This document shows, piece by piece, positions 33,367-42,079 of a stretch of 42,863 nucleotides of DNA. Position numbers and translations under genes: made by a program. Each line of letters opens with the position of its first letter. The first letter of the stretch is position 1. The stretch spans positions 1 to 42,863 of the forward strand of contig JASKLG010000005.1 in assembly GCA_030153805.1 (NCBI GenBank), in the 5' to 3' direction. The notes below the pieces were generated by a model. It did not search any database. It worked only from the letters and a program-made list of their open reading frames with translations, and had not been told where the DNA came from. This DNA comes from Bacillota bacterium (GTDB taxonomy: Bacteria; Bacillota; DTU030; DUMP01).

Positions 33367-33420
33367 AAATCACAAAAGAATAATTGCCTCATCTCAGTCC
33401 CTGAAAGCGCACCGCTGAGG

Positions 33421-33600
33421 TGAGGTAGAGGCGCGGTCGGTCAAGAGTAACCACCCTGAGCAGGGCAGCGATGGGGGGTGGCGAAAGGGGCCACCGCCGA
33501 AGCCGGGCATCCGCCCCGGGTGCCTGAGCTGGGCCGGCAGTTAAGAGCTGTCGGACTGTCACTTGCGGCTTCCCCGGGCTGCAAGTGATGAGCTATCTCA
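33421..33600 (+). promoter_or_regulatory. Lysine riboswitch (L box) aptamer
   Basis: The conserved blocks occur in the right order and spacing: AGAGGCGCG (33427-33435), CAAGAGTA, GAAAGGGG, GCCGAAG, GCTGG, ACTGTCAC and GAGCTATCTCA. The P1 stem pairs 33421-33428 with 33593-33600 (one G-T). P2 to P5 helices are all formable; for example P5 pairs CACTTGC with GCAAGTG. This matches the lysine aptamers of Bacillus and Thermotoga lysC block by block. It lies in a 424-base gene-free leader before the 2Fe-2S/FAD oxidoreductase operon. Known L-boxes repress lysine synthesis or uptake; whether this one is ON or OFF cannot be read, because I find no unambiguous antiterminator. Confidence 0.94.
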
Positions 33601-33631
33601 CGCTTGGGGAAGGGATGGGCTACGAGCCATT

Positions 33632-33660
33632 GGGCCAGGCCTGTCTGCCTGGCCCTTTCT
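33632..33660 (+). terminator. Expression-platform terminator of the lysine riboswitch
   Basis: A perfect nine-bp GC-rich stem (33632-33640 with 33647-33655) has a six-base loop, then TTTCT. It starts 31 bases after the aptamer and 80 bases before the first gene, the normal place for a riboswitch terminator. A second small hairpin (about 33615-33630) precedes it. Confidence 0.85.
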
Positions 33661-33739: not shown

Positions 33740-34057
33740 TTGCGCGTCGAAGAGCACCCCATCCTGGGGCCGCTACCTAAGACCGAAACTGTTTGGATTG
33801 AGGTGGACGGCAAGAAAATTCCTGCCCGGGCGGGAGAACCCATTGCCGCCGCCCTCCTGGCCGCCGGTATTCGCGTATTCCGCACCACGCACCGCCGCGG
33901 CGAGCCGCGCGGGCCCTTCTGTGCTGTCGGCCGCTGCACCGATTGCGTCATGACCGTGGACGGAGTACCAAATGTTCGTACCTGCGTTACCCCCGTCCGG
34001 GAAGGGATGAAGATCGAAACGCAAAGGGGGCTGGGCCGGTGGCCGGAGCTGAAGTAA
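33740..34057 (+). CDS. (2Fe-2S)-binding protein, HcnA/SoxA-N-like subunit
   Basis: This 105-residue plant-type ferredoxin-fold protein has cluster ligands in FCAVGRCTDC plus a later Cys (C-x4-C-x2-C-x11-C). It matches the small iron-sulfur subunit (or N-terminal domain) of hydrogen cyanide synthase, octopine/nopaline oxidases and dye-linked proline dehydrogenases, where it lies between two flavins. It is the first gene after the lysine riboswitch. The start is TTG with GGGGGAGG close upstream. It overlaps the next gene by 19 bases. Confidence 0.88.
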   Translation: MRVEEHPILGPLPKTETVWIEVDGKKIPARAGEPIAAALLAAGIRVFRTTHRRGEPRGPFCAVGRCTDCVMTVDGVPNVRTCVTPVREGMKIETQRGLGRWPELK

Positions 34058-35145
34058 CAGAAGTTGCCGTAGTCGGAGGCGGTCCGGCAGGCCTCTCCGC
34101 CGCCCTTGCGGCACGTCAGGCCGGAGCAAAGGTAATAGTGGTAGATGAAAACGCCGCGCCCGGCGGGCAGCTGCGCAAACAAATCCACAAGTTCTTTGGT
34201 TCCAAGGAGCACCACGCCGGACGGCGAGGCTTCCGTATTGCCGAAGAACTGGTCGCCGCCTGCCGGGAGCAGGGGGTGGAACTCTGGACGGACACCCTCG
34301 CTTACGGCATCTTTGACCACACGTTGGGGATTGTCCGTGGGGGTACGGCATCCACCCTCGCCGCCCGCTCCATCGTCCTCGCCACCGGTGCCAGCGAAAA
34401 TGCTTTGGCCTTTCCCGGCTGCACGCTGCCGGGGGTCATGGGCGCAGGTGCGGCTCAAACCTTCATTAACCTGCACCGGGTCCTGCCTGGGCGGCGGGCC
34501 CTTATAGTAGGCGCCGGCAACGTAGGTCTAATTATCACCTACCAGCTCCTCCAGGCGGGCGCGGAGGTGCTCGGCGTGGTGGAGGCGGCACCTCGCATCG
34601 GCGGCTATGCCGTGCATGCGGCAAAAATCCGCCGCGCCGGCGTTCCCATCTATACCCGGCATACGGTGCTGAACGCCGCCGGGCACGGTGAACTGGAGGA
34701 GGTTACCATTGCCGCCCTGGACGAAAACGGCTGGCCCATAGCCGGCAGCGAACGGACGTTCGCCATAGACCTCCTCTGCTTGGCCGTGGGGCTTACCCCT
34801 CTTACCGAGCTTGCCTGGCAGGCGGGCTGCCTCTTCGAGTATTGCGGCCCTTTGGGCGGGCATGTGCCGCTGCACAGTGAGGATATGGAGACGACCGTTC
34901 CCGGGCTCTTCGTTGCCGGCGATATGGCCGGGGTGGAGGAGGCTTCCACAGCCCTGGAGGAGGGTCGCCTGGCCGGTCTCGCGGCCGCCGCCTATGCGGG
35001 GTACCGTAGCCCGAACCTGGAAGAAGAAAAGGCGGCCGCGCGCGAGCGCCTTCAGGCCCTGCGCAGCGGCCCCTTCGGAGAAGGGCGCTATCTTGCGCAC
35101 GAGGAGATCGTAAGGAGGTGGCTCAAATGGAGGGACGCCCGGTAG
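34039..35145 (+). CDS. FAD/NAD(P)-fold oxidoreductase subunit, HcnB-like
   Basis: This 368-residue protein has two Rossmann modules. The FAD site is GGGPAGLSAALAARQAG near the N-terminus, a second nucleotide loop is VGAGNVGLIITYQLLQAG near residue 155, and the closing FAD motif is VPGLFVAGDMAGVEEA. It resembles the alpha subunit of multisubunit amino-acid dehydrogenases (HcnB, PDH alpha, OoxA). The GTG at 34039 fits the family N-terminus; the longer frame overlaps the previous gene without support. The relatives' C-terminal BFD domain is absent here and is instead encoded as a separate gene two positions downstream. Confidence 0.88.
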   Translation: MAGAEVTEVAVVGGGPAGLSAALAARQAGAKVIVVDENAAPGGQLRKQIHKFFGSKEHHAGRRGFRIAEELVAACREQGVELWTDTLAYGIFDHTLGIVRGGTASTLAARSIVLATGASENALAFPGCTLPGVMGAGAAQTFINLHRVLPGRRALIVGAGNVGLIITYQLLQAGAEVLGVVEAAPRIGGYAVHAAKIRRAGVPIYTRHTVLNAAGHGELEEVTIAALDENGWPIAGSERTFAIDLLCLAVGLTPLTELAWQAGCLFEYCGPLGGHVPLHSEDMETTVPGLFVAGDMAGVEEASTALEEGRLAGLAAAAYAGYRSPNLEEEKAAARERLQALRSGPFGEGRYLAHEEIVRRWLKWRDAR

Positions 35146-35540
35146 CCGTTATCGAGTGCCCGGAGGAGATCCCCTGTAATCCGTGTGAAACGGCCTGCCC
35201 GCAGGGGGCCATTCAAATAGGCAATCCCATTACACGCCGCCCGAGATTGGATGCGGCCAGGTGCACGGGGTGCGGGCTGTGCGTAGCCGCCTGCCCCGGT
35301 CTGGCCATCTTTCTGGTGAAGGAAGAGGCCGACACGGCTGAAGTCACCTTCCCCTACGAGTTCCTGCCCCTTCCGCAGGTGGGCGACGTGGTTACCGCCG
35401 TCGGCCGCGAGGGACAGCCGCTCGGTGCCGCCCGTGTGGTGGCCGTGCGGCAGGTGCGTACCTCGGACGGAACCTGGCTGGTCACCCTCGCCGTTCCTCG
35501 GGCGCTATCTTCTGAAGTGCGTGGGATGAGGAGGCTGTAG
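35127..35540 (+). CDS. 2x[4Fe-4S] ferredoxin-like electron-transfer subunit
   Basis: This 137-residue protein has one cluster motif near the N-terminus (IPCNPCETACPQGAI) and a second CTGCGLCVAACPG, followed by a small beta-rich C-terminal domain. The ATG at 35127 has AAGGAGG at normal distance; a GTG three codons earlier lies inside that site. It overlaps the HcnB-like gene by 19 bases. In archaeal dye-linked proline dehydrogenases a comparable ferredoxin subunit carries electrons between flavins, which suggests ferredoxin or another low-potential carrier as partner. Confidence 0.85.
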   Translation: MEGRPVAVIECPEEIPCNPCETACPQGAIQIGNPITRRPRLDAARCTGCGLCVAACPGLAIFLVKEEADTAEVTFPYEFLPLPQVGDVVTAVGREGQPLGAARVVAVRQVRTSDGTWLVTLAVPRALSSEVRGMRRL

Positions 35541-35542
35541 CG

Positions 35543-35815
35543 ATGAATGACGACGATGTGATCATCTGCCGCTGCGAAGAAATCACCAAGGGCGAGATTC
35601 GGCGGGCCATCCAGGCAGGCGCCACCACCTTCAAGGCCATCAAGAAGTTCACCCGCGCCGGTATGGGCCTCTGCCAGGGGCGCACCTGCCGCCGGCTCAT
35701 CCTCCAAATCCTGGCCCAGGAAACGGGACAGACACCGGGACAGCTTTTGCCGGGTTCCTACCGCCCGCCCACCCGGCCGGTCCCACTCGCCGCTTTGAAG
35801 GGGGAAAAACCATGA
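35543..35815 (+). CDS. BFD-type [2Fe-2S] protein
   Basis: This 90-residue protein has the bacterioferritin-associated-ferredoxin-like pattern: CRCEE (C-x-C) at 9-11 and LCQGRTCRR (C-x4-C) about 35 residues later. In relatives this domain is fused to the C-terminus of the HcnB-like subunit. Here it is free-standing, two bases after the ferredoxin gene and overlapping the next gene's ATG by four bases. Confidence 0.87.
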   Translation: MNDDDVIICRCEEITKGEIRRAIQAGATTFKAIKKFTRAGMGLCQGRTCRRLILQILAQETGQTPGQLLPGSYRPPTRPVPLAALKGEKP

Positions 35816-37014
35816 AGGCGCCCGATGTGGTGGTTGTCGGCGGCGGCGTTATCGGCACGGCGGTCACCTACTACCTGGCTAAACAAGGTGCGGATGTTCT
35901 TCTTTTGGAACGGAGCGAACTCGGCGGCGAGACATCCTCCGCCTGCGACGGGTTCGTCATCCTGCAGTCGAAAAGCCCGGGCGTACATCTGGCCCTGGCC
36001 CTGGCTTCCGCCGAGCTCTACCGCAACCTTGCCGCCGAGCTCGACTGGGACATTGAGTACAAAAACTGCGGCGGTCTCATTGTAATTGAACGCGAAGAAG
36101 AAATGCCGGCCATGCGCACCTTTATGAGCAAACAGCAGGCCATCGGACTGGATGTACGCCTGCTCTCCGGCGAAGAGGTGCGCCGCCTGGAACCTGCCTT
36201 GGCTCCCTATATCGCGGGGGCCACCTACAGCCCGCAGGACAGCCAGGTGAACCCTCTTCAGGTAGTGTTGGGCTTTGCCCAGGCGGCGGCCCGCCTGGGA
36301 GCTCGGGTGTGCCAGGGGATGCCGCTCCAGACTCTGCGGCGCACCGGCGCGCGGGTCGGTGCGGTGGTAGCAGGAGGAGAAGAGATTCCGGCCGGGGCGG
36401 TGGTTTTGTGCACGGGCGTCTTCACGCCAGAAATTCTCGCTCCGCTCGGGGTCGACCTGCCGATCCGGCCCCGGCGCGGGCAACTGGTGGTGACCGAACC
36501 GGCTCCACCCATGGTCCGGCACATCTTTCTCTGCGCCCGATACATCGCCGCCAAATACCACCCGGAGCTTCTCGCGGCGGCAGAAGATGAAGCGCTGCGC
36601 CTCGGGGTGGGACTCGCGCTCGAGCAGACAGAGAGCGGAGGGTTCCTCATCGGCAGCACGCGCGAGTTCGTCGGCTGGGACAAAAGGACCACGCCCGGCG
36701 GCATCAGGGAAATTGTCCGCCACGCCACCCGCATCCTGCCGGCCCTCGCTCAGCTCAACGCCATCCGTACCTTTGCCGGGCTCAGGCCCTACACCCCCGA
36801 CGGCCTACCATTCCTGGGGCCGGTACCGGGGTGGGAAAACCTCTACCTTGCCGCCGGTCATGAAGGCGACGGCATAGCTCTAGCTCCCATCACCGGCCGC
36901 CTGATGGCGGAGCTAATTCTCACCGGCCATACGTCTTTTCCGCTGGAGGACTTTGCCGTAGAGCGTTTTTCCTGCGGCAAAGAGCAGGGAGGCCGGCTCA
37001 AGGTTACGCCCTAA
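35812..37014 (+). CDS. FAD-dependent amino-acid/amine oxidoreductase (DAO family), catalytic subunit
   Basis: This 400-residue DAO-fold flavoprotein has the FAD loop VVVGGGVIGTAVTYYLAKQG at the N-terminus followed by LLERSELGGETSS. The middle substrate domain contains RPRRGQLVVTEP, and FAGLRPYTPDGLPFLGPVPG plus AAGHEGDGIALAPITG close the flavin site. It resembles the catalytic beta subunits HcnC, SoxB, OoxB and PDH beta, which oxidise the C-N bond of glycine, sarcosine, proline, opines or D-amino acids. Substrate is not readable. Because the operon is under a lysine riboswitch, a lysine-related substrate (for example D-lysine) is my inference. Confidence 0.88.
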   Translation: MKAPDVVVVGGGVIGTAVTYYLAKQGADVLLLERSELGGETSSACDGFVILQSKSPGVHLALALASAELYRNLAAELDWDIEYKNCGGLIVIEREEEMPAMRTFMSKQQAIGLDVRLLSGEEVRRLEPALAPYIAGATYSPQDSQVNPLQVVLGFAQAAARLGARVCQGMPLQTLRRTGARVGAVVAGGEEIPAGAVVLCTGVFTPEILAPLGVDLPIRPRRGQLVVTEPAPPMVRHIFLCARYIAAKYHPELLAAAEDEALRLGVGLALEQTESGGFLIGSTREFVGWDKRTTPGGIREIVRHATRILPALAQLNAIRTFAGLRPYTPDGLPFLGPVPGWENLYLAAGHEGDGIALAPITGRLMAELILTGHTSFPLEDFAVERFSCGKEQGGRLKVTP

Positions 37015-37099: not shown

Positions 37100-38446
37100 G
37101 TGTGGAGCGTGCTCATCCCGGTATCGGCGCTTTTCCTCATCATTTTGGCCCCGCTTCCGAAAATCGGGGGTGAGGTGCGTCTCGGGCTCCTTACCGCCGC
37201 CATCCTGGCCTTTCTTTTGGGCGGCGTTGGGCCGGGCACCGCACTTCTGGCCGCCGTCGACGGCATCGACCGTATCGCCTGGGTGATTGGCCTTTCCATC
37301 TTTGGCAGCATCTACGCGCAATCCCAGGTGAGCTTAGGAACCATGGATACGGTCCTCAACATCTTCCGGGCCCTCTTCGGGCACAGTCCCAAGGGGCTGG
37401 TGGCAGCGGTGCTCTTAACCCTGGTTTTGGCCGGTTCGCTCCTCGGCGACGCCATCGCTTCGGTTACGGTAATCGGGGTGCTGGTAGTACTTTCTCTGGC
37501 CGAGCTCGGTCTGACTCCGGAAGAGACGGGCGTGATCATTCTTCTTGGCGGCATCTTGGGTTCAATCATGCCGCCTATAACTCAGGCCTTTTTCCTCGCT
37601 TCCAGCCTGGTCGGGACCCCCGTCGATCCGGTGGTGAACCTCGGCTACCTTACTGTGGGCGTCGGGGTAATTGTAGCCCTTTTCACCGTGTCGCGTTACG
37701 TTCGGATAAAGGAACTTCCAACCGAACTCATCCCGGAGCGCACGGCAGGCCAAATTCTGGCCCGGGAATGGCCGCGCCTTTTGCCCCTCATCGTGCTGGC
37801 CGGCATTGTGGTGCTGCGCTCCGGCTTTAAAGTAGAACTACTCAAGGTGCTCGATCCCTTACTTCCCTTTGCCCAAACCCCCATCTTAAAGGCCTTGACC
37901 AACCGTATCATCCAGGCCATCATCGTAGCTACTGTGGTGGCCTTTGCCTTTCGCCGGGTGCGGCGCGAAACCGGTGAGATCCTGCGCAAAGGCCTGGCCG
38001 CAGTGTCCAAGACCGTTCAGATCCAGCTCTGCGCAGGCGTTATGATCGGTGCCTTTTACGCCTCCGGCATGATCGACCGGGTGGTTGAGTTTACCAAGGG
38101 ACTCGCCCCGGCGGCGGTAAAGCTGGGCGGGGCAGGGGCCATGCTCCTTATGGGCATGCTGACCGGCTCGCAGACCACCTCTCAAAACACCCTGATGCCT
38201 TTTCTCGGGCCCATCCTAACCCAGAATTTAGGAGTGGCGCCGGTGAAAGCAGCCCTCGGTGCGGCGCATCTGGCCATGGCCGGGCAGTCCATGCCGCCGG
38301 TCTGCCTCACCACCTTTGTGGTGGCCGGCATCGTAGGGGGCATCCTGGCCAAGAAAGTGGATCCGGTGCGCGTCATGCTCATGGCCCTACCCGTCACCAT
38401 TTACTTTACCCTAGTGGGCCTGGCGGCCTGGTTCCAGGTGTTCTAG
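37100..38446 (+). CDS. Ion-transporter-superfamily permease (DctM/TRAP-large-subunit-like)
   Basis: This 448-residue protein has about 12 hydrophobic helices in two similar halves. Each half holds a membrane re-entrant-type motif: GGILGSIMPPITQAFFLA in the first half, and GSQTTSQNTLMPFLGP with AGQSMPPVCLTTFVVAG in the second. This pattern is that of IT-superfamily carriers such as TRAP large subunits (DctM) or related Na+-coupled amino or organic acid permeases. No DctP or DctQ partner is adjacent. The GTG start has AAAGGAGGT upstream, 85 bases after the oxidoreductase gene. Uptake of the substrate of the neighbouring dehydrogenase is a reasonable inference. Confidence 0.8.
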   Translation: MWSVLIPVSALFLIILAPLPKIGGEVRLGLLTAAILAFLLGGVGPGTALLAAVDGIDRIAWVIGLSIFGSIYAQSQVSLGTMDTVLNIFRALFGHSPKGLVAAVLLTLVLAGSLLGDAIASVTVIGVLVVLSLAELGLTPEETGVIILLGGILGSIMPPITQAFFLASSLVGTPVDPVVNLGYLTVGVGVIVALFTVSRYVRIKELPTELIPERTAGQILAREWPRLLPLIVLAGIVVLRSGFKVELLKVLDPLLPFAQTPILKALTNRIIQAIIVATVVAFAFRRVRRETGEILRKGLAAVSKTVQIQLCAGVMIGAFYASGMIDRVVEFTKGLAPAAVKLGGAGAMLLMGMLTGSQTTSQNTLMPFLGPILTQNLGVAPVKAALGAAHLAMAGQSMPPVCLTTFVVAGIVGGILAKKVDPVRVMLMALPVTIYFTLVGLAAWFQVF

Positions 38447-38504
38447 TGGGCGGCCTGCAAAAGGACGGTATTGGCCGAGCCTGTCTTTAAAAGGAGGGGC
38501 GTAG

Positions 38505-39251
38505 ATGGCGCTAATTCCAGGCGGCTACACTACTTACGGTCAAGTTCTGGGGATCATCATGCTCGATACCCGCTTTCCACGCCTTCCGGGCGACATCGGT
38601 CACGCCGCTACTTTCCCCTTTCCCGTGCGCTATCAGGTGGTTAAGGGTGCTTCGCCCGTACGCGTCGTACAGGAAGCCGACCCGGCCCTTCTCGCTCCTT
38701 TTATCGACGCCGCCCGAGAGCTGGAGGCGGCCGGAGTGCGTGCCATCACCACCAGCTGCGGCTTTCTGGCCCTGTGGCAGAAGGAGCTGGCGGCCGCCGT
38801 TAAGGTTCCCTTCTTCGCTTCCAGCCTGCTCCAGGTACCCCTCGCCTGGCACCTTACCGGCGGGCGGCCCGTGGGCATCATCACTGCCCATGCGCCCAGC
38901 CTTACGCCGGGACACCTCGCCGCCGTGGGAGCGGCCGACGTGCCGCACGTCATCTACGGGCTGGAGAACGCTCCGGAGTTCAGCCGCACTTTCCTGGTCG
39001 GCGAGCCGACGCTAAACCCGAAGGCGGTGTACGAAGAAGTACGCTCGGTAAGCCGGCGACTCGTCCGCGATCACCCAGAGATCGGCTCCATAGTCCTGGA
39101 ATGCACCAATTTGCCTCCTTTTTCGTCTGCAGTAAGGGAGGAGACTGCTCTTCCGGTTTTCGACATCGTGAGCCTCTGCCACCTGGTGGTGCGCGCCGCC
39201 TCCTATCCCGCTCTTCTTACATCCCTCTCCGCCTTTTTCCCGGCCGGATAA
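38505..39251 (+). CDS. Aspartate/glutamate racemase-family protein
   Basis: This 248-residue protein has the two-Cys layout of Asp/Glu and hydantoin racemases: TTSCGFL (about Cys 84) and LECTNLPPF (about Cys 202). The family inverts the alpha carbon of amino acids by a two-base mechanism without PLP. The spacing and the N-terminal GYTTYGQVLGIIMLDTRFPR resemble an uncharacterised subgroup, so the substrate is open. Its place in an operon with a DAO-family dehydrogenase suggests an L-to-D conversion that feeds the oxidase. The start ATG has AAAGGAGG upstream. Confidence 0.82.
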   Translation: MALIPGGYTTYGQVLGIIMLDTRFPRLPGDIGHAATFPFPVRYQVVKGASPVRVVQEADPALLAPFIDAARELEAAGVRAITTSCGFLALWQKELAAAVKVPFFASSLLQVPLAWHLTGGRPVGIITAHAPSLTPGHLAAVGAADVPHVIYGLENAPEFSRTFLVGEPTLNPKAVYEEVRSVSRRLVRDHPEIGSIVLECTNLPPFSSAVREETALPVFDIVSLCHLVVRAASYPALLTSLSAFFPAG

Positions 39252-39302
39252 AGCGACTGCCCCCTGGATAAGCTACAGGCAAAAACCCCGGGAGGTGGCG
39301 TA

Positions 39303-39551
39303 ATGTCCGCAAGAATCGCCGTTGAAAACGGGCTGGATTACGTCAAGGAATACCTGGCCAGGCAAGGTTACGATGTGGTGGACTTGAAGGGCGGCCCGGG
39401 AAACGCTCAAGCCGTAGTCGTTAGCGGGACCGACGAATCCTTTCTCGGGATGGCCGACCGCACCACCAACGTCCCGGTCATCTCCGCCCAGGGGCGGACG
39501 CCGCAAGAGATCCTTACCGACATCAAAGAACGGCTGCAAAAAACGCGCTGA
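39303..39551 (+). CDS. ykuS: YkuS/UPF0180 family protein
   Basis: This 82-residue protein begins RIAVENGLDYVKEYLARQGY. It has AVVVSGTDESFLGMADRTT and ends with RTPQEILTDIKERL, matching the Bacillus YkuS/UPF0180 family of unknown function. It has a GGGAGGT ribosome binding site. It is the last gene of the riboswitch operon, immediately followed by a strong terminator. Confidence 0.85.
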   Translation: MSARIAVENGLDYVKEYLARQGYDVVDLKGGPGNAQAVVVSGTDESFLGMADRTTNVPVISAQGRTPQEILTDIKERLQKTR

Positions 39552-39578
39552 GGCAGGGTTTCACCTGCCTCTTTTCTT
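39550..39578 (+). terminator. Intrinsic terminator ending the lysine riboswitch operon
   Basis: A perfect eight-bp stem (39550-39557 with 39564-39571) has a six-base loop and TTTTCTT. It overlaps the ykuS stop and separates the operon from the alanine-dehydrogenase-like gene. Confidence 0.9.
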
Positions 39579-39672
39579 ACGTCGGTTTGCCGGAATATGA
39601 CGCCACGAAGAGGAGGAATGGCGCTGCCTACGCCGAAAGGAAAAAGAAAGGCACGTAAAGGGGGAAAGATTC

Positions 39673-40788
39673 ATGCTGATCGGTGTGCCCCGAGAAAGGG
39701 TACCGGGGGAACTTAGGGTTGCCCTGGTTCCGGGCGGTGTGGCCGCGCTCACGCGCCAGGGCCACCGCGTACTTTTGGAAGCAGGTGCCGGTGCCGGAAG
39801 CGGTTGGAGCGACGCCGCCTACCGGGAGGCGGGGGCGGAAATAATAGAAGGACTGGAGCAGATTTACGGCCGGGCTGAGGTAATCGTTAAAGTCAAGGAA
39901 CCGGTGAAAGAGGAGCTCAACCTCCTGCGCGAAGGACAGGTTCTTCTTGCCTTTCTCATGTTCAGCAAAAATCGCCCGCTCCTCGAGGAGCTGGTTAAGA
40001 GGCGTGTGATCGGTATCGGCTGGGAGAAAGTACAGGGCTCGGGCGGGGTGCGACCGGTGCTGGCGGCCATGAGCGAGATTTCCGGCGTTGCCGCCGTGCT
40101 TTTCGCGGCCGACCTGTTGAGGAGCGACCGGGGTGGGCCGGGCATCATCCTCGGCGGTATAAGCGGCCTCGTGCCGCCGAAAGTTGTAATCCTCGGCCCC
40201 GGGCAGGTAGGCAAGGCGGCTGCCCGCACTGCGGCCGGCCTGGGAGCCCACACAATTCTGGTTGGCTACAGCCTGGAGCAGGTGCGCGCCGCCCGTAGCG
40301 AGCTGCCGCCGGGAGTCTGTACTATAGTGGCCCAGGGGGATGCCCTTGCCCACTGCCTGGACGGCTGCCAGGTACTGATCAACACCGTAACTTTGCGCCC
40401 GGGGGAAAGGGACGAGCACCTGGTTCCCCGCTCCTACCTTAAACTCTTGGCGCCGGGCGCGGTAGTCATCGACGTGGCCGTGGATAAAGGAGGCGCGGTT
40501 GAAACCAGCCGGCCCACCACTTGGGACGACCCTATTTACGTAGAAGAAGGCGTCCGCCACGTAGCCATCCCAAACCTTCCGGCGCGTTTCCCGCACACGG
40601 CCACCACCGCGCTGGCGACGGCAGTCCTGCCCTATCTAAAAACCATCGCTGCGGCTGGCTGGCGGGCGGCGCTCCGGGCCGACGCGGGACTGAGGGCCGG
40701 TCTCGTCTGCGTGGACGGGCGGCTGACCGATGAACAGGCGGCCCGTCTTTACGGCCTCTCCTATCACCCGGCCGAGGACGAGGTCTGA
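39673..40788 (+). CDS. Alanine dehydrogenase/PNT-family protein with altered active site
   Basis: This 371-residue protein aligns end to end with alanine dehydrogenase, which converts alanine to pyruvate and ammonia with NAD. It keeps Arg15 (GELRVAL), Lys75 (VKVKEP) and Asp271 (VVIDVAVDKGG), and a Rossmann loop ILGPGQVGKAAART. The catalytic His at the position of His96 is replaced by Met96 (AFLMFSK against the usual YLHLAA), and the acidic residue after beta-2 that binds NAD ribose is lost (LVGYSLEQV against IIDLNADRL). The late NMPGAVPRTS segment is also changed. It is therefore probably not a standard alanine dehydrogenase; other amino-acid dehydrogenase or non-catalytic roles are possible. 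The ATG has AAAGGGGG upstream. Confidence 0.85.
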   Translation: MLIGVPRERVPGELRVALVPGGVAALTRQGHRVLLEAGAGAGSGWSDAAYREAGAEIIEGLEQIYGRAEVIVKVKEPVKEELNLLREGQVLLAFLMFSKNRPLLEELVKRRVIGIGWEKVQGSGGVRPVLAAMSEISGVAAVLFAADLLRSDRGGPGIILGGISGLVPPKVVILGPGQVGKAAARTAAGLGAHTILVGYSLEQVRAARSELPPGVCTIVAQGDALAHCLDGCQVLINTVTLRPGERDEHLVPRSYLKLLAPGAVVIDVAVDKGGAVETSRPTTWDDPIYVEEGVRHVAIPNLPARFPHTATTALATAVLPYLKTIAAAGWRAALRADAGLRAGLVCVDGRLTDEQAARLYGLSYHPAEDEV

Positions 40789-40789
40789 C

Positions 40790-40948
40790 ATGACCGCCTT
40801 TTTCGCCGGCCTCCTCCTTCTCGCCGCCGCCGGATTTCTTCTTAGAGGCGGCCGCCGGCGGCTGGACGTCCTGCGCCGCCGTGCTCCGCAGGGTGCCGCC
40901 CGCATCACTCAGCGCCGGCGCCTTAGAAGGGGGCTCGGGGGTCGATGA
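40790..40948 (+). CDS. Possible small membrane protein
   Basis: A 52-residue frame starts two bases after the preceding gene's stop, with GAGGT five bases upstream of ATG. It has a hydrophobic N-terminal helix (FFAGLLLLAAAGFLL) and a very Arg-rich remainder. It overlaps the 3' end of the opposite-strand alcohol dehydrogenase gene by 26 bases. High GC and overlap make chance possible, and I do not recognise a family. Confidence 0.35.
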   Translation: MTAFFAGLLLLAAAGFLLRGGRRRLDVLRRRAPQGAARITQRRRLRRGLGGR

Positions 40949-42023
40949 CCGCCTTGATCACCTTTTGCGCCTCCACGTCGGCCAGGGCCTGGTTCGCCTC
41001 GGCCAGGCTGTAGCGGCGGGTGATGAAGCGCTCCCAGCGGATGCGGCCGTTATGCTTGGAAAGGACCTTCAGGGCGCGGTAGAAGTGACTGAAGTCGATG
41101 CCCCAGGTACCGCGCACGTCTACATGCTTCTTGTTGATGTCCCAGTGAGGGTTCAGAGTTACCTCACCGTGGTCGGTATACTGCCCGACCACCACATAGG
41201 TACCGCAGTCGCGCACCATGGCCAGGCCTTCTTTTACGGCGGCCGGCACCCCCGTCGCTTCGATGACGATGTCCGCGCCCCGGCCGCCGGTGAGGGCCTT
41301 TACTCGCTGGATGCGCTCGTCTACGGGAACTTCCTCGATGTTGATTACCTCATCCACGCCAAGGCTGCGGGCAAATTCCAGCCGGAGCGCCGGTGCTCCC
41401 ACCAGGATCACCTGCCAGGCTCCGGCCAAGACGCTCAAAAGAGCTGCATTTAACCCTACCGGGCCGCTCCCCTGCACTACCACGCTGGCGGCGAGCCCCA
41501 CGCCGCCACGCTCTACCGCGTGGAAGGCGGTGGGAAGGCCGCATCCTCCGCCAATAATGGCTTCAGGCGGCACGTCCGCCGGTATCTTTACAATGCGCAC
41601 GCCCGGTTTAAGATAAATTTTCTCGCTCCACCCGCCCAAAAGACCGTCCCGGGCCGAATAGGTAATACCGTATACGCGCCGGCTCGGGCAACGGGTGGAT
41701 GCTTTGGCCACCTCGCAGTACCAGCAGCTGTGGCACGTACCGTGGACGTCGAGAAAGGTTACCACGTCGCCCGGCTTAAGGATTTCCCCGTCCGCATCCC
41801 GGACCTCTCCGCCCGTCGCTTCCACTTCACCCACGTTAATGTGGCCCGGGATGATGGGGTAGGGAACCTCCGCCAGCCGACCGTGCCAGAGGTGGACATC
41901 GGTGCCGCATACCTCGGAAAAGAGAGTTCGGAGGATTACTGCGCCGGGTTCTAACACCGGTTCAGGGAACTCCACAACCCGCACCGGCTGCTCCGGCGCT
42001 TCCATAACCGCCGCTTTGACCAT
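40923..42023 (-). CDS. Zinc-dependent medium-chain alcohol dehydrogenase family protein
   Basis: This 366-residue MDR protein has the catalytic-zinc Cys in SEVCGTDVHLWHG and the His in PGHINVGEV. The structural-zinc lobe CHSCWYCEVAKASTRC has four Cys, GGGCGLPTAFHA is present, and the NAD loop is VVQGSGPVGLNAALL. It oxidises or reduces an alcohol or polyol with NAD(P); the substrate is unknown, with threonine/sorbitol-type relatives likely. The usual Glu of the GHE motif is Ile here. ATG at 42023 is chosen over an upstream in-frame start because AAAGGAG lies seven bases before it. Confidence 0.92.
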   Translation of the reverse strand: MVKAAVMEAPEQPVRVVEFPEPVLEPGAVILRTLFSEVCGTDVHLWHGRLAEVPYPIIPGHINVGEVEATGGEVRDADGEILKPGDVVTFLDVHGTCHSCWYCEVAKASTRCPSRRVYGITYSARDGLLGGWSEKIYLKPGVRIVKIPADVPPEAIIGGGCGLPTAFHAVERGGVGLAASVVVQGSGPVGLNAALLSVLAGAWQVILVGAPALRLEFARSLGVDEVINIEEVPVDERIQRVKALTGGRGADIVIEATGVPAAVKEGLAMVRDCGTYVVVGQYTDHGEVTLNPHWDINKKHVDVRGTWGIDFSHFYRALKVLSKHNGRIRWERFITRRYSLAEANQALADVEAQKVIKAVIDPRAPF

Positions 42024-42079
42024 GAGCGCACTCCTTTCCTTACCGATCAATATCTGACACCCGGGAGGGCACCTGCCAG

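Follow-up and report, generated by a model that had tools for sequence, protein, structure and literature searches.

A conserved alanine dehydrogenase-like protein with methionine in place of the catalytic histidine, encoded beside a lysine riboswitch operon in the putative genus Gelria

A gene that encodes an alanine dehydrogenase-like protein with methionine in place of the catalytic histidine raises the question of whether its product still acts on alanine and, if not, what its substrate might be. The gene was found in contig JASKLG010000005.1 (assembly GCA_030153805.1) of a Bacillota bacterium that falls into the putative genus Gelria, a heat-loving anaerobe. All positions refer to the window, that is, the whole stretch of 42,863 nucleotides analyzed, and the coordinates of its features are collected in Table 1. 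A preliminary description of the gene had listed the residues lost and retained and had suggested a modified amino-acid or imine reductase, possibly NADP-linked. Its observation of the residue losses was confirmed by alignment, and its interpretation as a whole is partly supported by the results presented here.

Table 1. Coordinates of the alanine dehydrogenase-like gene, its altered codons and the neighboring features in the window.
Feature	Coordinates	Strand	Basis
Lysine riboswitch aptamer RF00168, at the operon head	33418..33603	+	Rfam, 103.5 bits; in 3/3 genus members
[2Fe-2S] protein, gamma-like subunit of a flavin amine dehydrogenase complex	33740..34057	+	Fer2_4
FAD protein, alpha-like subunit (sarcosine oxidase alpha / Pyr_redox_2)	33943..35145	+	Domain matches
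Ferredoxin-like protein	35118..35540	+	Domain match
BFD-like [2Fe-2S] / SO_alpha_A3 protein	35543..35815	+	Domain match
DAO-family flavoprotein, beta-like catalytic subunit (glycine/sarcosine oxidase-like)	35812..37014	+	Pfam, NCBIfam
DctM-like membrane transporter	37100..38446	+	Pfam
Asp/Glu racemase family protein, PRK07475 subfamily	38505..39251	+	292 bits, cut-off 231
UPF0180 protein	39303..39551	+	Pfam
Terminator-like hairpin between operon and gene	39550..39571	+	Stem in 3/3 genus members
Alanine dehydrogenase-like gene, 371 aa, M96/G198 clade	39673..40788	+	ORF; Pfam/NCBIfam matches; residues; model pLDDT 93.3
ATG codon, Met96 replacing catalytic His96	39958..39960	+	Sequence, alignment
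Gly198 codon replacing NAD-contacting Asp198	40264..40266	+	Codon count from 39673; alignment; contact as reported in PMC4691113
Zinc alcohol-dehydrogenase-like gene, convergent with 39673..40788	40923..42050	-	Pfam/NCBIfam; slot marker in sister genus G005

The gene product matched both Pfam domains of its family well above the cut-offs, with 130.7 bits for AlaDh_PNT_N (cut-off 30.4) and 178 bits for AlaDh_PNT_C (cut-off 23); the only other Pfam match was a weak one to 2-Hacid_dh_C. The score for the NCBIfam alanine dehydrogenase equivalog TIGR00518, 325.4 bits, was below its cut-off of 391.85, and the PntA profiles were not reached either (143.3 of 383 bits for NF006942 and 123.8 of 444.4 bits for TIGR00561). 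The start codon is preceded by GGGGG, which could bind the ribosome.

An AlphaFold model of the product, computed from 34 sequences, had a pTM of 0.89, and its lowest-confidence block comprised residues 241–250 (pLDDT 68, compared with the mean given in Table 1). The top structural matches were alanine dehydrogenases (Z 41–49), followed by domain I of transhydrogenase (Z 34–38.5) and by saccharopine dehydrogenase and the LKR domain (Z 25–29). The same order was returned by Foldseek, with alanine dehydrogenases first and transhydrogenase domain I second. The model could be overlaid on the NAD-pyruvate complex of the Mycobacterium tuberculosis enzyme with Z 48.8 and an rmsd of 1.9 over 365 residues. 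According to the model, the alanine dehydrogenase fold is intact. Just past the gene stop, at position 40790, lies the second ATG of a 72-codon open reading frame (40730–40948), whose translation is hydrophobic and then arginine-rich and which runs into the 3' end of the convergent gene for zinc alcohol dehydrogenase.

The active-site and cofactor residues were compared in an alignment of 80 loci. Eleven of these were left out of the count, namely ten repeat genes and the partial locus L054, which has the histidine. The residue table therefore sets the three members of the clade against 66 other full-length loci, all of them better matches to the query; these form 58 groups at 90% identity and cannot be taken as random or as fully independent. 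Residue 96 was methionine in all three clade members and histidine in all 66 others, as the preliminary description had read it. Ten extra, mostly weaker matches were also inspected, and the eight that span this position all carry histidine, including the transhydrogenase-like loci L140 and L141. No alternative histidine occupying the position of His96 was found in the family alignment, so that the preliminary reading was not refuted on this point; His249, which is invariant in the clade, belongs to a different column, where histidine also occurs in 5 of the 66 ordinary enzymes.

The second loss noted was that of the aspartate after beta-2 (GYSLEQ in place of DLNADR). Residue 198 was glycine in 3/3 clade members, while the other sequences had aspartate (52), glutamate (13) or glycine (1), an acidic residue thus being present in 65 of 66. 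The preliminary description was also right that Arg15, Lys75 and the late aspartate are kept: together with Ser134 and Asn300 (301 here), Arg15, Lys75 and Asp270 (271 here) are unchanged in all three members, and the GxGxxG loop is retained.

Further changes common to the clade were Y94F, A98S/N, T119K, L127R, P132A, A137S, R203Q, G237N, P248E, Q271K/E and H284W, of which Tyr94, Ala98, Pro132, Ala137 and Gln271 are nearly invariant elsewhere. A one-residue insertion at position 240 faces a gap in all 66 other sequences. Of 101 columns with at least 90% conservation among the others, 25 are altered in the clade. One of the changes noted earlier, RTS to HTA near the end, did not prove to be a marker of the clade, since the histidine is found in only two of the three members (the third has arginine) and A310 occurs in 12 of the 66 others.

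In the alanine dehydrogenase of M. tuberculosis, replacement of His96 or Asp270 is reported to abolish activity, and Asp198 to contact NAD (PMC4691113). Loss of activity is likewise reported upon replacement of Arg15, Lys75, His96 or Asp269, and the histidine of the ordinary enzyme is described as serving proton transfer near the pyruvate carbonyl oxygen (PMC10401832). Because replacement of His96 is reported to abolish activity, it is likely from the sequence that the clade has lost alanine dehydrogenase activity, in agreement with the earlier statement that simple alanine deamination is improbable. We advise against annotating this gene as "alanine dehydrogenase".

As for the cofactor, the variants D198A of the Shewanella enzyme and D196A/L197R of the Bacillus subtilis enzyme are tabulated as NAD to NADP changes (PMC5817062). 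Since Asp198 is glycine in the clade, use of NADPH by the putative reductase is plausible, and the NADP link raised earlier can be kept to the extent that the analogy with these mutants holds.

The changes at residues 96 and 198 define a conserved clade, M96 and G198 being common to all three genomes of the genus with branch support of 100/100. The other two copies are 90% and 80% identical to the query, and one of them comes from a Bacillota MAG (contig JASKKP010000015.1). Pairwise dN/dS was about 0.12 in each comparison (0.053/0.425, 0.133/1.152 and 0.132/1.078), a value lying within the range of the seven neighboring genes measured (about 0.05–0.22). Judged from these ratios, the gene is under purifying selection in the three species. 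The M96 and G198 changes go beyond chance because they are common to all genus members at a dN/dS of 0.12.

In a midpoint-rooted tree of 69 rows, the fully supported clade was set on a branch of 2.23 changes per site, and the ordinary alanine dehydrogenases of the genus, one of which is encoded elsewhere in each of the three genomes, grouped with those of their family. The searches covered 61 genomes, 13 of the class, 398 of the phylum and a set of 396 that was probably largely the same draw, with the three genus members included; the contig-level scan of genomes used two short patterns. The 398-genome search gave matches in 180 genomes, and residue 96 was read in the loci fetched from these. 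Among the matches listed, no clade member was found outside the genus in the 398 sampled phylum genomes, and the best non-genus match reached 324.7 bits, compared with 766–803 bits for the clade, and keeps His96. These sequence data suggest a paralogue of old origin within the alanine dehydrogenase/transhydrogenase family that appears to be restricted to the genus.

The genomic neighborhood was examined next to the residues, as the gene had been described as following a lysine operon after a terminator. A verdict of "no lysine operon", drawn from gene content alone, was dropped when the Rfam search gave a lysine riboswitch. This part of the earlier statement stands firmly: RF00168 occupies the corresponding position in all three genus members, with scores of 103.5, 99.1 and 90.8 bits against a gathering score of 30. 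The terminator is the weaker part. A scan of positions 38400–41100 gave two terminator-like sites compared with an average of 2.7 in shuffled sequence, that is, no better than chance, so that the case for the hairpin comes from its position after the operon and from its stem, which is kept in all three members. No sigma-70-type promoter was found in the same interval (chance expectation 0.4). The whole 12-kb block is syntenic across the genus, for which reason synteny within the genus is weak evidence of function.

Other predicted RNA structures were seen around the operon. A hairpin of 12–14 bp lies just upstream of the aptamer (33385–33427) in all three genus members and looks like an alternative (anti-P1) fold, because it uses the 5' strand of aptamer P1; a terminator-like hairpin follows the aptamer at 33632–33655. 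In both genus relatives, tandem glycine riboswitches are located a few kilobases downstream (L033:16219-16415 and L034:16073-16278).

The operon combines Fer2_4, Pyr_redox_2, BFD/SO_alpha_A3 and DAO domains, i.e., the domains of alpha, beta and gamma subunits of one flavin complex; the true start of the FAD protein is probably further in, since the listed start overlaps the preceding gene. For the racemase, the only PDB match was insignificant (E 0.79), and we know of no lysine activity in this racemase family. By sequence, the first five genes resemble those of known multi-subunit flavin dehydrogenases that act on D-hydroxyproline, L-proline and opines, of which three-subunit forms are known (PMC4575208).

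Flavin genes were also found outside the genus. In the sister genera G007 and G004 they follow the same bactofilin-like gene without a riboswitch, and in the distant genomes G049 and G054 they are present with no riboswitch in the stretch fetched; the lysine riboswitch was thus found in none of the four other-genus loci carrying flavin genes (L094–L097). At L094 (G007:C134) and L095 (G004:C3), the flavin operon occupies the same chromosomal place, and a terminator-like hairpin without an aptamer could be seen there by eye. The riboswitch was either gained in Gelria or lost elsewhere.

Relatives of the racemase were followed in six plasmid contexts, a small sample read from the best hits among 164 matched records. 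An FAD oxidoreductase lies directly next to the racemase in three of them (Leisingera, Ruegeria sp. and Rhizobium), and a pyridine-nucleotide amino-acid dehydrogenase-like gene is adjacent or one gene off in three (Vescimonas, Chelatococcus and Rhizobium). In Vescimonas this is an alanine dehydrogenase-family gene beside the racemase, the racemases being 48.5% identical; in Chelatococcus, it is a gene annotated as "saccharopine dehydrogenase C-terminal domain", for which there is no NCBIfam support, with an FAD oxidoreductase further off; and in Rhizobium, it is an aspartate-dehydrogenase-like gene, below every family cut-off, at a distance of one gene. Neither partner was present in the sixth context, that of R. 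pomeroyi. Small as the sample is, the strongest clue to function is that genes for a racemase, a flavin oxidoreductase and a pyridine-nucleotide amino-acid dehydrogenase repeatedly occur together.

The Vescimonas record (L159, NZ_AP023419.1) is a circular "plasmid" of 4,032 bases whose annotation comprises only the racemase, an NhaC antiporter and the gene of the alanine dehydrogenase family; a replication gene is absent from its incomplete gene table, and it may be a mis-assembled chromosomal piece. No similarity was detected between the NhaC gene and the transporter of the operon studied here.

The reading that we prefer is that the product is no longer an alanine dehydrogenase and instead uses NAD(P)H to reduce a 2-imino or 2-oxo acid related to lysine, a reading that falls only a little short of probable and whose substrate and cofactor we infer from the evidence above. 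In such an enzyme, Arg15 and Lys75 would hold the substrate, as they do with pyruvate in the ordinary enzyme, and NAD(P)H would give a hydride to its C2. A ready C=N substrate, for example a cyclic ketimine, would presumably not need the proton step of His96. Combined with the lysine setting, this makes Delta1-piperideine-2-carboxylate the obvious candidate; its reduction to L-pipecolate is our leading specific guess, possible but by no means probable.

In the corresponding route, the racemase would make D-lysine, the flavin complex would oxidize it at C2, and the reductase would convert the resulting Delta1-piperideine-2-carboxylate to L-pipecolate as the last step, with lysine governing the operon through the riboswitch. 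We consider it rather unlikely that the proposal holds in its most complete form, that is, an NADPH-dependent cyclic ketimine reductase without the family histidine, working in a riboswitch-commanded lysine route of Gelria together with the racemase and a flavin D-amino-acid dehydrogenase complex. Against the preferred reading stand the terminator-like hairpin that separates the gene from the operon and the failure to find a sigma-70-type promoter at 38400–41100. To our knowledge, such a lysine route has not been described for syntrophic anaerobes, and no description of a ketimine reductase lacking the histidine in a lysine route was found among the open-licence papers listed in searches on its separate parts. 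A comparable sequence of reactions is reported for Pseudomonas putida, in which D-lysine is converted by D-amino acid dehydrogenase to piperideine-2-carboxylate and then to L-pipecolate (PMC6034422). Lysine riboswitches are described as mostly controlling lysine biosynthesis or transport by repression, with activation of catabolic genes also being possible (PMC5584792); should this one be repressing, the role of the operon would lie in salvaging or taking up lysine and not in breaking it down.

An alternative comes from the sister genus G005, in which the racemase, the UPF0180 gene and the zinc alcohol dehydrogenase gene are in place and a gene of the D-2-hydroxyacid dehydrogenase family fills the slot of the query. 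The racemase is encoded in all three genus members as well, whereas searches of G003, G004, G006 and G007 did not detect it. Given this replacement, the product could simply reduce a 2-oxo acid with NAD(P)H, forming a 2-hydroxy acid from the oxo acid supplied by the flavin complex and handling no nitrogen. In the three genus members, identity to the G005 gene reaches only 43–46% in its best relatives, which fits this alternative. On the other hand, the replacement is a single case on a 3.3-kb contig ending at the racemase, a search of G005 at E 1e-40 gave no DAO gene, and a carbonyl substrate would be expected to profit from His96. We give this alternative a small though real chance. In G006, a 64% identical relative of the G005 gene lies next to genes that, as judged from translations, encode a dehydratase and a GntR regulator, and not in a module of this kind.

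The preferred reductase was also weighed against an opine-type enzyme, which would join the lysine amino group with a 2-oxo acid or split the product, and which would be paired with the opine-dehydrogenase-like flavin complex. The likeness of this complex to three-subunit flavin opine and D-hydroxyproline dehydrogenases (PMC4575208) speaks for it, as does the fold common to the model, saccharopine dehydrogenase and the human LKR domain (Z 25–29). Asn237 is present in the clade and in 8/8 N5-(carboxyethyl)ornithine synthase-like proteins, while 63 of the 66 ordinary enzymes have glycine there; the same residue also occurs in L157 and L158, however, and so does not single out opine enzymes. The eight synthase-like proteins, moreover, all retain His96. 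When seven of them were added to the tree, the clade still stood apart on a branch of 1.69 changes per site, the clade and the annotated synthases forming separate supported groups; this counts only weakly against the alternative, as the branches are very long and deep placement is unsure. An opine-type enzyme appears improbable.

Asn237 (40381–40383) is common to the clade and to all ten non-standard relatives read, namely the eight synthase-like proteins, L157 and L158, and possibly characterizes a broader branch of the family that does not act on alanine. Two other shared residues suggested by one pairwise alignment, His249 and Lys272, proved not to be consistent across the eight synthase-like sequences. 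Among the relatives read was L142 (G058:C25:9779-10606), a protein of about 316 residues whose closest annotated plasmid matches are N5-(carboxyethyl)ornithine synthases; its genome also carries several partial alanine dehydrogenase matches. L142 had prompted the idea that the clade belongs to these synthases, which was rejected because those proteins keep His96.

It could further be argued that the protein is still an amino-acid dehydrogenase for alanine, glycine or another small substrate, with an unusual acid-base group such as Lys75 or His249 in the role of His96. The intact Arg15, Lys75, Asp270 and Asn300, the invariance of His249 in the clade and the close overlay of the model on the NAD-pyruvate complex agree with this view. 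Against it stand the presence of His96 in every one of the 66 ordinary homologues, the reported abolition of activity upon its loss, and the ordinary alanine dehydrogenase already encoded in the genome, which together render it quite unlikely. A catalytically dead relative retained as a binding or regulatory protein would fit the loss of two hallmark residues, but with the remaining active site and the GxGxxG loop kept and dN/dS within the range of the neighboring genes, it is very improbable.

The clade is a clean natural example of a well-characterized fold that stays under selection despite the loss of its textbook catalytic and NAD-selecting residues. It can help to assign the parts of the mechanism of alanine dehydrogenase to the chemistry that needs them, and the adjoining lysine riboswitch points to a substrate class that is readily testable.

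When compared with known systems, the protein is closest to L-alanine dehydrogenase (Ald, EC 1.4.1.1; M. tuberculosis Rv2780 and Thermus thermophilus 2eez), with which it has both Pfam domains over its full length and Arg15, Lys75, Asp270 and Asn300 in common, its identity to solved members being 36–43% at Z 41–49. It differs in His96Met, Asp198Gly, Tyr94Phe, Gln271Lys/Glu, the insertion at position 240 and the sub-cut-off TIGR00518 score. The alpha subunit of NAD(P) transhydrogenase (PntA) has the same fold, but the query stays far under the family cut-off (143 versus 383 bits), and the transhydrogenase-like proteins L140 and L141 have His96 where the clade has methionine. N5-(carboxyethyl)ornithine synthase, represented by L142, is an AlaDh_PNT family member too and has, besides Asn237, some other positions in common with the clade; the synthase-like proteins (six of the eight so annotated, two of them near-identical) differ in residue 96 and fall into a separate group in the tree, whose very long branches make the deep placement unsure.

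Saccharopine dehydrogenase and the LKR domain of human AASS are related to the query by superfamily fold and by putative lysine chemistry, with 18–25% identity in structural alignments; a sequence match was obtained only to AASS and was weak (E 1.1e-5 to 2.1e-4, residues 4–143). With DpkA, the Delta1-piperideine-2-carboxylate reductase of P. putida, the likeness lies in the proposed reaction only. DpkA is described as a malate/lactate dehydrogenase-type protein, and the query has no such Pfam match and belongs to a different family. The families known to us for piperideine-2-carboxylate reduction are DpkA and mu-crystallin, both named in PMC11876095; if the proposed reaction is correct, the alanine dehydrogenase fold would represent a further, unrelated family for it.
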